A stretch of 31,145 bases of DNA from a virus. Below, one piece after another: positions 1 through 31,145 of this stretch (position 1 is the stretch's first letter; the number at the start of each line of letters is the position of its first letter). The DNA lies in IMG/VR virus record IMGVR_UViG_3300047469_000397, positions 1 through 31,145 of that record; one strand, 5' to 3'. Position numbers and translations under genes: made by a program. The notes beneath the pieces are model-generated. The model was not told the origin of the DNA and did no database searches. It saw nothing but the letters and a program-made list of their open reading frames with translations.

Positions 1-2
1 CG

Positions 3-182
3 TTGCCGATTGCGGCTCCAGCACCTGCTGCTCCGGCGTTGCCGATTGCGGCTCCAGCACCTGCTGCTCCGGCGTTGCCGATTGCGGCTCCAGCACCTGT
101 TCCTCCGGCGTTGCCGATTGCGGCTCCAGCACCTGTTCCTCCGGCGTTACCCATTGCGACGCCAGCTCCTGTGCCTCCAGCT
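3..182 (+). repeat. 36-bp tandem repeat, five copies
   Basis: Five consecutive 36-base units start at 3, 39, 75, 111 and 147. Units 1 and 2 share GCTGCTC in the variable part, units 3 and 4 share GTTCCTC, and unit 5 is the most diverged. The array continues to the left edge, so the copy number is not known. The period is a multiple of three, so gain or loss of units keeps the reading frame. Confidence 0.85.
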
Positions 183-209
183 TTGCCCGTAACATCAACA
201 CAACCTTAA
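3..209 (+). CDS. 3' end of a Pro/Ala-rich repeat protein (partial)
   Basis: This is the last 68 codons of a reading frame that is open to the window edge, so the true start lies upstream. It consists of a 12-residue unit, L-P-I-A-A-P-A-P-(A/V)-(A/P)-P-A, five times in a row, followed by a short tail LPVTSTQP and TAA at 207-209. Low-complexity Pro/Ala repeats of this kind usually form extended linkers or cell-wall spanning segments; no domain is visible to say which protein this is. Because the DNA unit is 36 bases long, all three forward frames stay open, and this frame is preferred for its regular composition and its stop after the last unit. It is probably host or island DNA to the left of the prophage. 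Confidence 0.5.
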   Translation: MPIAAPAPAAPALPIAAPAPAAPALPIAAPAPVPPALPIAAPAPVPPALPIATPAPVPPALPVTSTQP

Positions 210-3260: not shown

Positions 3261-3480
3261 CATCGCAGACTTTGCGAATGACCTGGTGCAGGAGCGACTT
3301 GACCAGGCGCTGGCTGCTCGAAACGCAGTCAAGCCTGTGACAGCCGCTCACTCTTTCATGTACTGCGAAAACTGCGAGGAGCCTATCCCCGAAGCTCGTC
3401 GTCTAGCTGTGCAAGGGTGCATTTACTGCGTGTCCTGTCAGGCGGTTGATGAAGTGTTGGAGGCTCGACATGCTCGATGA
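3253..3480 (+). CDS. Small C4 zinc-finger protein, TraR/DksA type
   Basis: A 75-residue protein whose residues 38-58 carry the arrangement C-E-N-C-(x)n-C-I-Y-C-V-S-C, the four-cysteine zinc finger of the TraR/DksA family, preceded by EEPIPEARR, also characteristic. Phage TraR-like proteins bind the secondary channel of RNA polymerase and change promoter choice without ppGpp; that role is known for the family and inferred here. ATG 3253 lies within the end of the CII-like gene (8-base overlap), and the next gene starts inside this one (3470), so the three genes form one tightly packed operon. Confidence 0.8.
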   Translation: MADIADFANDLVQERLDQALAARNAVKPVTAAHSFMYCENCEEPIPEARRLAVQGCIYCVSCQAVDEVLEARHAR

Positions 3481-5689
3481 AGTTCTCGGTCAGTTCGCAG
3501 ACTACGGTCTTGAGCCTGAGCAGCCGTTGATCTTCGGCAAGCTGACTCGATGCAAGACCTCCCAAGACAAGGGGAAGGAAAAAAACGGTTGGTACGTTAT
3601 CCACGAGCATCGCACCGAGAAGAATGAAACGCTGATCTTCGGCAGCTTCGGTGATTGGCGTTCGGGCGAGACGCAGAAGATTAAGCTCAAGGCCGGACGG
3701 ATGTCACCCGAAGAGCGCGAGGTCATGCGTGCTCGACAAGAAGACGCTAAGCGCCGCGCTGCTGAGATCGCGGCCAATGCGGCACGTCGAGCGGCGAACC
3801 GAGCTGCGGGGCTGTTCAAACGCATGTCGGAGAAGGGCCGTAGCGACTATCTGGATCGAAAGCAGATCGTCGGTTTTGGCGTTCGTTACGCACCGCGCTC
3901 CGGCGCGTTTTTGGTGCCTATGTGCAATGTGCGGGACCAGATCGTCGGCCTGCAGGTGGTGTTTCCAGCCAAGCAGGAAGACACCGGACGGGATAAATCC
4001 TACTGGCCCTATGGCATGTCGAAAGAGGGCGCCTTTCACTTGGTCGGTCCACACCCGGAGCCGGGCGAGCCGGTGCTGGTGTGTGAAGGCTATGCCACGG
4101 GCGCAAGCCTGCACATGGCGACGTCGCTGACAGTGGCTATCGCCTTCGACGCGGGCAACTTGTTGGTGGTCTGCAAGGCCATGCGTGAGCGTTTCCCGGG
4201 CTGTCCGCTGATTGTCTGTCGCGACGATGACTGGAAGACCAAGCGCCCGAATGGCGATGCCTGGAACCCGGGTGAAGAGAAGGCCAACAACGCGGCGTTA
4301 ATCGTTGGTGGCCAGGTGGTCGCGCCGATCTTTTCCGGTGAGCGAGAAGACAAGTGGACGGACTTCAATGACCTGCATGTTGCCGAAGGCTTGGAGGCTG
4401 TTCGCCGTCAAGTGTTGTCGGTAGTCAAGCCACCGGCAGCAGGTGGTTGGAAAGATCAATTGGCCCGAACCGAAAGCGGCGCCCTGATCGTGCACATGCA
4501 GAATGTCGAGCTGATTCTCGGCAACGACGAACGCTGGGCCGGTGTGATCACTTATAGCGCCTTCAGCTCGAAGATCGTCAAGTTACGATCTGCGCCTTAT
4601 GGCGGCGGTACGGGCGACTGGGCCGACATCGATGACGTTCGGGTGATGAAGTGGCTCGCACAGCAATACAACCTGCGGGTTAAGTCGACTCAAGTGATTG
4701 AGGCGGTGAGCGTTGTGGCCCATGACCATGCGTTTCATCCGGTGCGGGAGTATCTGAGCAAGCTCGAATGGGATCGTGTGCCTAGGCTGGATAGTTGGCT
4801 CACGGATGTCATGGGCGTTCAGGCCAGCGACTACTCGGCCAAGGTCGGTAAGCGTTGGATGTTGTCGGCGGTGGGACGGGTGATGAAGCCCGGCTGCAAG
4901 GCTGACTCGGTGATGATTCTTGAGGGCGCGCAGGGGGCTGGTAAGTCGACAGCGATGAGCATCCTTGGCGGTGAGTGGTTTATGGATACGCCTTTCGCTT
5001 TGGGTGACAAGGACGGGTTTCAGGCGATTCGCGGCAAATGGATTGTCGAGCTGGGGGAGCTGGACAGCTTCAACAAGGCTGAAAGCACCAAGGCCAAGCA
5101 GTTCTTCTCGGCGTCGACCGATACGTACCGCGAGAGCTACGGCCGCAGAACGAACGACGTGCCGCGCCAGTGTGTGTTCGTGGGTACGACCAACCAGGAC
5201 GAGTACCTCAAGGACGCCACCGGCAACCGGCGTTATTGGCCGGTGGCCTGTACCAAGGTTGATCTGGAAAAACTGCGCGAGATTCGCGACCAGCTCTGGG
5301 CTGAAGCGATGTTCTGTTATGAGGCGGGCGACATCTGGTGGGTAACGCCAGGTGAAGCACCAATGTTCGCCGAGGCACAGGACGAACGCTTTGTTGTGGA
5401 CGAATGGGAAGGGCCAATCCTGACATGGTTGGAGGAGTCGCAGATCGGTGAAACCACCTCAGGCAGTGAAGTACTGACCAATGCGCTGAAGCTCGACTTT
5501 GGTCACTGGGGCAAGCCAGAACAAATGCGCGTCGGGGCAATCATGCATCGTCTCGGTTGGCGGCGAACACGTATGCCGCCTTTGGTGAAGAGTGGGCAGC
5601 GTCCGTGGGCTTACAAGAAACCCGCAGGATGGGGCGGCGCTTCGGCGTTGAAGGTGGAACCGATTGAGGAGCCATGCTTCGGTGATTAA
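3470..5689 (+). CDS. Primase-helicase: TOPRIM domain fused to VapE-type helicase
   Basis: A 739-residue replication protein. Residues 80-125 are a long Arg/Ala-rich helix. Around 195-260 lies a TOPRIM primase fold, with the catalytic glutamate Glu206 in LVCEGYATG and an acidic DDD cluster near 251-253 in LIVCRDDDW. From about 380 to 680 there is a virulence-associated-E (VapE/D5-like) superfamily 3 helicase: Walker A GAQGAGKST with Lys492, Walker B ELGELDSF, sensor stretch VFVGTTNQ, and an arginine-finger-like GNRRYW. It should make primers and unwind DNA at the phage origin, like the alpha protein of P4. ATG 3470 follows GGAGG at 3459-3463; the frame is open 24 bases further up but lacks a ribosome site. 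It overlaps the zinc-finger gene by 11 bases and the next gene by 8. Repeats 380 bases after its end may be its origin. Confidence 0.88.
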   Translation: MLDEVLGQFADYGLEPEQPLIFGKLTRCKTSQDKGKEKNGWYVIHEHRTEKNETLIFGSFGDWRSGETQKIKLKAGRMSPEEREVMRARQEDAKRRAAEIAANAARRAANRAAGLFKRMSEKGRSDYLDRKQIVGFGVRYAPRSGAFLVPMCNVRDQIVGLQVVFPAKQEDTGRDKSYWPYGMSKEGAFHLVGPHPEPGEPVLVCEGYATGASLHMATSLTVAIAFDAGNLLVVCKAMRERFPGCPLIVCRDDDWKTKRPNGDAWNPGEEKANNAALIVGGQVVAPIFSGEREDKWTDFNDLHVAEGLEAVRRQVLSVVKPPAAGGWKDQLARTESGALIVHMQNVELILGNDERWAGVITYSAFSSKIVKLRSAPYGGGTGDWADIDDVRVMKWLAQQYNLRVKSTQVIEAVSVVAHDHAFHPVREYLSKLEWDRVPRLDSWLTDVMGVQASDYSAKVGKRWMLSAVGRVMKPGCKADSVMILEGAQGAGKSTAMSILGGEWFMDTPFALGDKDGFQAIRGKWIVELGELDSFNKAESTKAKQFFSASTDTYRESYGRRTNDVPRQCVFVGTTNQDEYLKDATGNRRYWPVACTKVDLEKLREIRDQLWAEAMFCYEAGDIWWVTPGEAPMFAEAQDERFVVDEWEGPILTWLEESQIGETTSGSEVLTNALKLDFGHWGKPEQMRVGAIMHRLGWRRTRMPPLVKSGQRPWAYKKPAGWGGASALKVEPIEEPCFGD

Positions 5690-6047
5690 GCGAATTGATG
5701 AAATGCTCAAACTTTGGGCCGAGGATCTGCACTCGCCGATGACCACGTCCTTCGGTGGGGCGAGCGGCGGCAACATGATCGCCATGTTGATGGAGTGCAA
5801 AGGGGAGCTGATTCGGGGTACTCGCGGCAGCCGGGTGCTGCTGGATGAATCGGCAGACATTGAACTGATCGTAAACAAGCACCTGCCACCGCAGTTGTCG
5901 GTGGTGGTGTGGGAGCACTACTGCAATCACGAGAGCTTCCTGTCGCAGAAAATCACGCATTGCGGCTGCTGCCGTAAAACCTATTACGAGCGCTTGCATG
6001 AGGCTCATGAGTACATTGCCGGCATGTTGATGGGGAAAGCTGCGTGA
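5682..6047 (+). CDS. Sigma-region-4-like protein, possible antiterminator Q
   Basis: A 121-residue protein. Residues 72-115 (LPPQLSVVVWEHYCNHESFL, then a turn and RKTYYERLHEAHEYI) read as a sigma-70 region 4-like helix-turn-helix in which RKTYYERLHEAH is the recognition helix; a CGCC cysteine group lies in the turn. This pattern fits the antiterminator Q proteins of lambda-like phages, which load onto RNA polymerase at the late promoter. Position supports it: the last early gene, followed by a long non-coding region, a terminator and the holin. The start is taken as GTG 5682, 10 bases after GAGGAG (5666-5671) and overlapping the primase gene by 8 bases; TTG 5664 would place the ribosome site inside the gene. 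It might instead be another late regulator. Confidence 0.55.
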   Translation: MIKRIDEMLKLWAEDLHSPMTTSFGGASGGNMIAMLMECKGELIRGTRGSRVLLDESADIELIVNKHLPPQLSVVVWEHYCNHESFLSQKITHCGCCRKTYYERLHEAHEYIAGMLMGKAA

Positions 6048-6071: not shown

Positions 6072-6350
6072 TTGTCCCACTGGCCCGCCTTGTCCCACTG
6101 CGTTTTAACGTAGTGGGACAAGCGCGGGCCGCGTCGTTGCTGGGCTGTCCCACCGTCCCGCCTGTTGGAGTCTCCCGCCCATGTGAGCGAAGCGGGTACC
6201 AGCACGCGCCCGTGGCGCGCACGCGTGTTATTCAATTCCTTTCTTTACACGAGAAAGAAGATAGAAAAGTAGGACTGTGGGGCGACGCCCCGAATTTAGG
6301 CACTCTCAGGCGTCCCACTTCGATTATGAAAGGTGGGACAGATGGGACAA
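6072..6350. repeat. Bidirectional GTCCCAC repeat cluster with AT-rich core; candidate replication origin
   Basis: The 7-base word GTCCCAC occurs exactly at 6074, 6092, 6147 and 6312, and its complement GTGGGAC at 6113 and 6333. Near copies lie at 6155 (GTCCCGC) and 6343 (TGGGAC). Most copies share the longer form TGTCCCAC. The copies form a left group (6074-6161) and a right group (6312-6348), with an AT-rich stretch between them at about 6226-6270. Iterons around an AT-rich unwinding element beside a primase-helicase gene are the layout of phage and plasmid origins such as that of P4. The function is inferred. Operators or a late-promoter control region are alternatives. Confidence 0.45.
6082..6130. 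repeat. Long near-perfect palindrome inside the repeat cluster
   Basis: GGCCCGCCTTGTCCCACTG (6082-6100) pairs with a downstream complement (CAGCGC-type arm, 6109-6130) around TTTTAA, giving about 20 paired positions with one unpaired base and one mismatch. Two of the GTCCCAC words form the heart of the stem. No T-tract follows on the plus strand, so it is not a standard terminator. It may be a protein-binding cruciform site or an RNA hairpin in the late leader. Confidence 0.7.
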
Positions 6351-6530
6351 CGCCACAGCAACTGATAGCCGAGGTGGTGTATTCACCGACATTGCCTAGG
6401 CGTTCACCCTGCGTTACCCACATATTCACCGGGTGGCATTAAAGTGGGGTTGCTGCCAGTAAATTCGACCTGTAAAAAGTAGTCATCTTCGATAGGTGCG
6501 ACCGCAGAGATCGGCATGCACCACACACCA

Positions 6531-6555
6531 AACCCGGCCATTACGCCGGGTTTTT
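6531..6555 (+). terminator. Rho-independent terminator before the holin gene
   Basis: AACCCGGC (6531-6538) pairs with GCCGGGTT (6545-6552) around a CATTAC loop, and five T residues run 6551-6555. It ends 19 bases before the holin start. If the upstream protein is a Q antiterminator, this occupies the place of the lambda tR' terminator, which Q must override to express lysis and head genes. Confidence 0.75.
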
Positions 6556-6924: not shown

Positions 6925-7080
6925 TGGTCTGGGGCGCCGAAAACTGCCGGGGACCCTGGGGTTATTCGGGGGGTACGGGGTCGGAAACCCGCGGGAAAGT
7001 GTTAGCGACAGGGTTGCCAGCTTACTGAAATTCAATCCATTGAAATTGAAAGGTTTGCATTGAAAAGCCGTTGAAAGGAG
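6925..7080 (+). other. Candidate cos region: G-run cluster plus TTGAAA repeats
   Basis: The 166-base gap before the small terminase gene holds no gene. It has four G-runs (6949-6952, 6958-6961, 6968-6973, 6977-6980) spaced 3-6 bases apart, then a partly symmetrical segment CGGGGTCGGAAACCCGCG (6976-6993), then TTGAAA four times (7040, 7046, 7060, 7071), with CTGAAA at 7025. In lambda-type phages the nicking site and the small-terminase binding repeats lie just here, upstream of the small terminase gene. No end sequence can be proven from the raw sequence. Confidence 0.4.
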
Positions 7081-7085
7081 GGTTT

Positions 7086-7688
7086 ATGACAGAACCAATG
7101 TACCTGTCTAAAAGCGCCTTCGCGGCTCGCATCGGCAGGGCGCCCAGCTACATCACCTGGTTGAAAAACAACAACCGCCTGGTACTCACTGCCGACGGAA
7201 AACAGGTCGACGTCACGGCCAGCGAAGCATTGATTCGCGACACCGCAGACCCGAGCAAAACCGGCGTCGCGGATCGGCACCATCATGACCGGCTACAGCG
7301 TGATGTGTACAGCCAGTTATCCAGTCACGTTGAACCGACTTCAACTGCTGCGCCGCCGCCCACGGTGAGCCCAGCGGCGGCGCTGCCAGATTTTCAAAAG
7401 GCTCGCGCGTTGCGTGAACACAACCTGGCCCAGCTGGCCGAGATCGAGTTGCACAAGGCCAAGGGTTCGTTGGTGTCCGTGACCGCGGTAAAGACGGGCG
7501 CCTACAACGCTGGCCGCATGCTCCGCGATCAATTGCTCGGCATGCCCCCGCAGTTGGCACCCGAACTGGCATCGATGACCGACCCTTGGGAAATCGAGAA
7601 GCACTTGACGGCGGCGATCCGCCGCTCGCTGGAGGACGCCGAGCGCATGTCTTCAGCGGACCTTGTACACGCACTGACTACGAGTTGA
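7086..7688 (+). CDS. Terminase small subunit (Nu1-like)
   Basis: A 200-residue protein. The N-terminus (residues 5-45: MYLSKSAFAARIGRAPSYIT followed by WLKNNNRLVL) is a winged helix-turn-helix like that of lambda Nu1, which recognises the cos site. A Pro/Ala linker at about 80-100 is followed by a helical C-terminal part (105-190) with EIELHKAKGSLVSV, used in this family for binding the large subunit. ATG 7086 is taken because AAAGGAGGG (7074-7082) lies directly before it; a TTG five codons up is within that site. The gene follows the candidate cos region and ends four bases before the large subunit. Confidence 0.8.
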   Translation: MTEPMYLSKSAFAARIGRAPSYITWLKNNNRLVLTADGKQVDVTASEALIRDTADPSKTGVADRHHHDRLQRDVYSQLSSHVEPTSTAAPPPTVSPAAALPDFQKARALREHNLAQLAEIELHKAKGSLVSVTAVKTGAYNAGRMLRDQLLGMPPQLAPELASMTDPWEIEKHLTAAIRRSLEDAERMSSADLVHALTTS

Positions 7689-29871: not shown

Positions 29872-30000
29872 ATGTCTACTCCTATCATCCCTTGGATGGG
29901 TGGCAAACGCCGCCTGGCCGACCGCCTCATTCCGCTTTTTCCGCCTCACGAGTGCTACGTCGAAGTCTTTGTCGGCGGTGCCGCAGAGACTCGGATTTAA
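29872..30000 (+). pseudogene. Truncated DNA adenine methylase (D12 class), N-terminal fragment
   Basis: A 42-residue frame, [19 protein letters not shown] and on to [11 protein letters not shown], matches the first 40 residues of phage D12-class adenine-N6 methylases (normally 230-290 residues). It retains the [10 protein letters not shown] motif and the AdoMet-binding FxGG region, then changes to ETRI-stop. The catalytic DPPY motif is missing, so no activity is expected. AAAGG (29856-29860) lies before the ATG. The break in homology, at about 29985, coincides with the change to AT-rich DNA, so the right end of the phage was cut or replaced here. Confidence 0.75.
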
Positions 30001-31145
30001 ATATTAAAAGGGACATATGGTAGATCCCAATAACAGGTATGAAACAAGTAAGGAGTTGGCCAAACTGAAAACTCCTCAACCTCTAGCCCCTCAATGTCCT
30101 CATGAGATGAAAAAACCACACCGCTTTTTCCAGAAAAATCCACTTTGTTCTGCCCACAGAAAACTGGTTCATCCTCAATAAAGACCCTGATATTTCCAGA
30201 CCTCGATGCCAAACTTACATAAACATCGATAGTATAGAACAATTTATTTCTAATATATTGTGATATGTTTTTCCCATCCAATACCACCGTGTAATCATTT
30301 GGACTTTCATCGCTTACAGCGCGAATAAATAATTTTTGATCACCATTGATCACAACTTCGAGGCGAACATCTCTTTCAATTCCATTTGTCCGACCAAGAG
30401 TGGCGTTATACAGAACCAATCCAGCGTAACACCTTTCACTAAAGCAGTTAGGTGACATCCTTATCTGAAAGTGCCTTCCATCCCAGAATATTGCCCCTTT
30501 TTTATTATTAATAACATCTCCATCAAAAAGACTAATCCATGCTTGGCCGCGAGTATCCCCGCTCACGTTGTACTTGCCAGGAGAGGAACTCCAGTTCCCA
30601 ATGCCATTTTTAGGCTTCCACTCTGGTATGTCGCCACTAAAGTTTGAGTATATATTTTCGACAATTGAAAATTTAGACACGAAATTACTGATCTGCTCAT
30701 TCGATGATTTCATCCTAAGTGTTAACGTATAGTCACCTGGCGGCAACCCACCATAAGCTGAAGTTGCATACCTGATACAACCTTTTTCCTTGCAAGGAGG
30801 GAACGGCTTCAAGGGTGGGATAATTTTTTTCGCAAGATGTTGTTGCGCACTGCTTCCACAGCGATTTGACCCAACCCTTCTTATGGGGGCCCAAGATATA
30901 TCCATTATCTGGTTACCAGTCCGATCCTCAATCAAGTTGAATGCTACCGAAGCATCGGGCGTGCAGCCCCAAGATAGTTCTGGTGTAGAGCTTTCGTTAA
31001 CTCTCCCTTTTGGAGCCAAACTAATATCGATAGGATCATCAGCCAGTGCGCCTCCCTCAAAAAACACCAGAATCAGTACTCCGAAACAGAGGCCGAGTAC
31101 ATTCAAAAAAAAGCCTTCTATATATTTAAATTTGTGCAAATTCAT
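29997..31145 (-). CDS. Secreted protein of unknown function
   Basis: A 382-residue protein; the ATG is the last codon of the window, so the gene could extend further. The N-terminus is a signal peptide: positive [11 protein letters not shown], hydrophobic [18 protein letters not shown], and likely cleavage after GGALA before DDP. A first domain (about 38-160) has several cysteines and [15 protein letters not shown]; a second beta-rich one (about 195-370) has [41 protein letters not shown] and resembles a jelly-roll or lectin-like fold, which is only an impression. The gene is AT-rich and runs toward the phage. Its stop (29997-29999) overlaps the stop of the methylase fragment on the other strand, so its own end may also have been reshaped at the junction. 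Confidence 0.65.

Follow-up and report, generated by a model that had tools for sequence, protein, structure and literature searches.

A mirror-image iteron array near a TOPRIM-VapE primase-helicase gene is very probably the replication origin of a temperate tailed phage

The DNA analyzed (the window) is the whole 31,145-nucleotide stretch of IMG/VR virus record IMGVR_UViG_3300047469_000397. It is a Pseudomonas-type prophage of a temperate tailed phage, in which genes for a CI/LexA-like repressor, CII, and a DksA-like protein are followed by a gene for a TOPRIM-VapE primase-helicase (3446 to 5689, plus strand), a PA0613-family gene, a repeat array, and then holin, terminase, portal, and tail genes, with a terminase small subunit (PHROG), a lambda-type portal, and a tail tape measure present. 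The array starts 385 bp past the end of the primase-helicase gene. It is thus downstream of that gene, as the first-pass annotation of this DNA had noted, but does not follow it directly because the PA0613-family gene (phrog_4300; 5664 to 6047, plus strand), which overlaps the end of the primase-helicase gene, lies between. The PA0613-family protein, located between replicase and holin, also occurs in prophages with another replicase. Beyond the array there is a hairpin terminator at 6530 to 6553, and the holin and structural operon starts at 6554. Adjoining the repressor gene, at 294 to 1304, is a gene with a DUF2806/TIGR03899-like domain that had no PADLOC match; a PADLOC run on the unknown flanking genes also gave no match. 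Tandem repeats at the edge of the window (1 to 209) have a proline/alanine-rich coding unit, GTTGCCGATTGCGGCTCCAGCACCTG, and a 382-amino-acid open reading frame on the minus strand (29997 to 31145) matched nothing in Pfam, PHROGs, NCBIfam, or PADLOC.

The six exact copies of GTCCCAC/GTGGGAC described initially were all found again, at 6074, 6092, 6113, 6147, 6312, and 6333, with those at 6113 and 6333 in the opposite orientation. Permitting one mismatch added four sites rather than the two near copies first reported, at 6155 (GCGGGAC), 6269 (GTAGGAC), 6277 (GTGGGGC), and 6342 (ATGGGAC), which enlarges the array to ten sites. The suspected excess over chance was real: 150 windows were simulated with matching dinucleotide frequencies, and five was the most copies that any 7-mer attained within 279 bp. 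The 31-kb window holds only two further copies of the exact motif and no second array of it.

The sites form two arms. Those of the left arm that read GTCCCAC on the plus strand, and hence GTGGGAC on the minus strand, are the exact iterons L1 (6074 to 6080), L2 (6092 to 6098), and L4 (6147 to 6153) and the one-mismatch iteron L5 (6155 to 6161), whose slot is occupied in relatives; exact iteron L3 (6113 to 6119) has the GTGGGAC orientation on the plus strand and forms a palindrome with L2. In the right arm the plus strand carries the GTGGGAC orientation at R5 (6269 to 6275), R4 (6277 to 6283), and R1 (6342 to 6348), each with one mismatch, and at exact iteron R2 (6333 to 6339), which forms a palindrome with exact iteron R3 (6312 to 6318, minus strand). 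From the outside in, site spacings are 18, 21, 34, and 8 in the left arm and 9, 21, 35, and 8 in the right arm. Because these spacings nearly match, the two five-site arms are near mirror images. The palindrome proposed earlier around two of the copies exists, in imperfect form, with 16-nucleotide arms (6089 to 6104 and 6107 to 6122) that match at 94% and extend further in the predicted fold. As had been noted, an AT-rich block lies between the two clusters. This core (6226 to 6272, 47 bp), the proposed melting site, is 70% AT, compared with 31% and 42% in its flanks, and its position is kept in relatives. A change in the sign of GC skew, suggested earlier as a check, was not seen at the array. 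A protein-coding explanation of the region was rejected; the length of the gap in relatives takes all three remainders of 3.

The product of the primase-helicase gene, the proposed initiator, has Pfam Toprim_3 and VapE domains and belongs to PHROG 2249 (DNA primase). It scored 267 bits against the VapE-like helicase profile (PF05272), for which the curated cutoff is 25. Residue numbers follow the 747-amino-acid open reading frame; the likely start is the ATG at 3470 (residue 9). In a sequence search of the PDB the sole strong match was 7pds (E value, 4e-87), an entry that labels its protein PriRep1, "similar to D. nodosus vapE," and which we take to be the SaPI1 protein. An AlphaFold model of residues 318 to 747 (mean pLDDT, 83) matched the same entry with a Z score of 32.5 over 390 residues, compared with 14.0 for the next entry. 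SaPI1 PriRep1 is the nearest solved relative of the window's primase-helicase.

The AlphaFold models, including one of residues 630 to 747 (pLDDT of about 90 across the winged-helix part), end in a helix-helix-helix-strand-strand order. The C-terminal model alone matched winged-helix proteins moderately (Z up to 7.6; 6.6 for PriRep1), and therefore the assignment of a winged-helix fold rests on the order of secondary structure elements and on the longer model. A winged helix usually contacts DNA through the region of its third helix and first wing strand. The model and the residue-letter association described below place the putative recognition helix at residues 690 to 702 and the first wing strand at 706 to 709 (codons 690 to 709, 5513 to 5572, plus strand), with residues 694 and 697 predicted on the third helix and 707 and 709 on the first wing strand. 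The window's protein has M694, G697, R707, and R709 at these positions.

Whether the repeats stay with the primase-helicase among relatives was a check that the first-pass annotation had proposed, and the result was strongly positive. About 160 relatives were collected with the primase-helicase, and not the array, as the query. In most of them the array lies in the gap between the PA0613-family gene and the holin gene, and motif copies are nearly absent elsewhere in the locus, which is usually about 9 kb long. The slots of the left arm are rigid, at -39, -21, 0, +34, and +42 in 60 loci. Relatives that are poor in GTGGGAC mostly have ATGGGAC or GTAGGAC in the identical slots. Ten loci appeared weak, and in eight of them the slots are clearly occupied by one-mismatch sites; of the other two, locus L269 has five sites and locus L238, in which the gap is incomplete, has none.

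The association was also recovered in the reverse direction. A blind scan of IMG/VR that used only the GTCCCAC palindrome, as the pattern TGTCCCAC-N2-30-GTGGGACA, returned VapE helicases in 28 of 120 loci, compared with 0 of 120 when the letters were scrambled. Many of these 28 VapE proteins are only about 38% identical to that of the window. Their loci have no PA0613 gene, carry up to 11 copies right after the VapE stop codon, and share the mirror layout of the window. In several second-family phages (loci L313 to L322, L335, and L349) the array is about 2 kb, at most about 2.2 kb, downstream of VapE.

The sites of one array change their letters jointly, in fixed slots, and in step with residues 694, 697, 707, and 709. 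In the window's family, switches were scored on a tree built without the C terminus. K707 in place of R707 went with a third base other than G in five of six independent switches, with none against; the sixth, in locus L166, which has a mixed array, showed no difference. I694 in place of M694 went with ATGGGAC (five independent switches, none against). Columns 707 and 694 ranked first of 746 for their respective traits. In a second VapE family, S697 went with T as the first base (seven independent switches), Q709 with GGTGAC replacing GGGAC (four), and K707 again with A as the third base (three), with none against in each case. All 52 rows of that family fit, over 14 independent switches, with one row (L348) that has A697 scored together with S697. 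Of 854 columns, 709 and 707 alone tracked their traits perfectly, and 697 was one of two that did so for its own. Over both families, 24 independent switches were concordant, none was discordant, and one was without difference. The rules for 694, 697, and 709 were picked after the data had been viewed; for 707, the second family reproduced a rule already found in the first. The exceptions are loci L060 and L269, which carry I694 without ATGGGAC, loci L166 and L142, which have mixed arrays, and locus L238, which has no array.

An out-of-sample set was provided by 21 second-family proteins with S697, R707, and R709 for which the array was absent from the fetched flank. When these records, many of which are fragments, were searched in full, the predicted TTGGGAC palindrome was found in 11 of the 21, and neither the reversed palindrome nor the GTGGGAC palindrome in any of them. 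The co-variation points to the putative C-terminal winged helix as the part of the helicase that reads the iterons. If recombination moved the C terminus and the array together, this could inflate the association between residues and letters, and such joint exchange would itself mean that the two belong together.

The array (6074 to 6348) is thus in all likelihood the origin from which this temperate tailed phage replicates, with the C-terminal winged helix of the initiator as its putative reader. The first-pass annotation had offered an origin as a possibility; linkage and co-variation now support it, and the firing itself we infer. It had also drawn a comparison with P4 alpha, a fused primase-helicase that binds iterons. 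P4, with its ori and crr, is like the window in having a fused primase-helicase and iterons, and the comparison fits by type; P4 is a satellite, and alpha-binding sites (crr) are also found away from its ori. Among the relatives found, however, SaPI1 PriRep1 is the closest, and the most similar origin layout described so far belongs to SaPI/PICI satellites, making this an origin type known from phage satellites. PICI origins consist of an AT-rich region between two iteron sets and directly adjoin the 3' end of the initiator gene (PMC6092414), and SaPI-type helicases are described as using the C-terminal domain to bind the iterons that lie downstream of the helicase gene (PMC7581432). The window likewise has paired iteron sets around an AT-rich stretch, located 3' of the initiator gene beyond one small intervening gene (absent in the second family), and its initiator is homologous to the VapE-type Pri-Rep helicase, including the C-terminal domain. 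The likeness is one of layout and initiator. Unlike SaPIs and PICIs, which lack the structural genes of a complete phage, the window holds a complete tailed phage that encodes terminase, portal, and tail proteins. The primase part of its protein is TOPRIM, a PA0613-family gene separates initiator and array, and the layout is a near-fixed five-plus-five mirror. A further likeness is to SCCmec Cch2 with its putative origin, in which a self-loading initiator helicase binds downstream repeats through its C-terminal domain (PMC7581432); that system differs in having three AAGTG repeats, a helicase of another subfamily, and a separate primase-polymerase.

The alternative that survives best is that the primase-helicase binds the array for copy control, autoregulation, or incompatibility, like P4 crr, and that replication does not start there. 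The location of P4 alpha-binding sites away from the origin would agree with this, as would the distance of up to about 2.2 kb between gene and array in some second-family phages. However, the two arms around an AT-rich core match PICI origins whose pri-rep-ori function was tested through plasmid maintenance (PMC6092414), and the window has no other array of the motif. We regard a purely regulatory role as improbable.

Still less probable is that the repeats are operators for the holin and structural operon, read by a late-gene activator such as the PA0613-family protein. The array is just upstream of the holin and terminase genes and beside the PA0613-family gene, and some PA0613 columns in the first family track the ATGGGAC type nearly equally well (4.63 vs 4.91). 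Natural replicase swaps contradict this alternative, which the first-pass annotation had also raised. When holin genes were gathered from 149 Pseudomonas genomes, the array, scored as exact variant sites, was present in 33 of 35 loci with a VapE primase adjoining the holin; exact sites are few in the remaining loci, L497 and L500, which come from the same genomes as weak loci L244 and L254. By comparison, no more than one site lies upstream of the holin in each of 25 Pseudomonas loci that share the holin family but are without a VapE primase. Two of these 25, the prophages at loci L553 and L554, have the matching gene order, a holin 94% identical, a TerL 84% (L553) or 65% (L554) identical, and a PA0613 relative, but their replicase is AEP PrimPol-DUF5906 and they lack the array. 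Because the replicase-swapped prophages lack it, the array travels with the replicase rather than with the late genes. Furthermore, in the distant VapE family no PA0613 gene is present and the array comes right behind VapE. PA0613 was rejected as the reader of the repeats: it had no consistent tie to the array across families, none of its columns matched R707 for GTAGGAC, and the gene is missing from the second family.

In L553 a different two-arm array, GTGTTGGGTTT/GTGTCGGGTTG, at 7010 to 7312, surrounds an AT-rich stretch, in the same place behind the replicase. It differs in being directly after the replicase gene, before the PA0613-like gene, and in being paired with another primase. It is probably the own origin of the AEP PrimPol-DUF5906 module.

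That the array region encodes a structured RNA such as an attenuator, leader, or terminator, the other earlier alternative, is scarcely credible: the plus strand folds much better than its own shuffles (z score, -6.0), but inverted DNA repeats fold anyway, a search of Rfam matched no family, and an RNA element is unnecessary because direct copies, which need no pairing partner, change jointly with inverted ones and follow the residues of a protein.

For the probable origin at 6074 to 6348, a full sequence of events can be proposed in which we place high confidence. The C-terminal winged helix of the TOPRIM-VapE primase-helicase would recognize GTGGGAC, and each five-site arm would load one helicase ring, so that two rings flank the AT-rich core. 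This core would then melt, the two rings would launch forks in opposite directions, and the fused primase would prime both forks.

It is likely, though with somewhat less assurance, that satellite-type origins are a widespread class in complete temperate phages and that recognition follows a simple winged-helix code. Under such a code, M694 with G697 would specify G as base 1, I694 would specify A, and S697 would specify T; residue 707 would set base 3 (R for G, K for A), and residue 709 would set GGGAC (R or K) versus GGTGAC (Q). If this is true, the origin of a VapE phage is predictable from its protein sequence, and the name virulence-associated protein E conceals a replication initiator. 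Prophages commonly encode VapE proteins, which annotations still describe as virulence-associated or auxiliary, and the VapE domain has been termed a typical AMG (PMC8424206). The concrete job proposed here for VapE is that of an initiator that marks its own origin. This origin type would now extend to complete tailed phages and to VapE helicases that share only about 38% identity. The correspondence between residues and bases would serve as an origin predictor, as a ready set of point changes for in vitro tests, and as a means to study origin exclusion between coresident prophages and satellites. The open-licence papers searched contained no report of such an origin in complete tailed phages or of a recognition code, and a text search for the motif strings found no relevant paper, the other matches concerning SaPI, PICI, or SCC only. 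Within that literature, both the recognition code and the use of such an origin in complete tailed phages appear to be new.

A clear array downstream of VapE was not seen in the phages Mano, Murka, Bas97, PPpW-3, Persinger, and BU183P1, and thus the array rule is not universal. Other repeats were found in both orientations downstream of VapE in three further phages, namely CTGCAACA in a Paenibacillus phage (locus L370, 3728 to 3909), CAGTGCAACC in an Acinetobacter phage (locus L371, 4570 to 4817), and GTGGGGTGACC in a Marinobacter phage (locus L284, 6190 to 6450).
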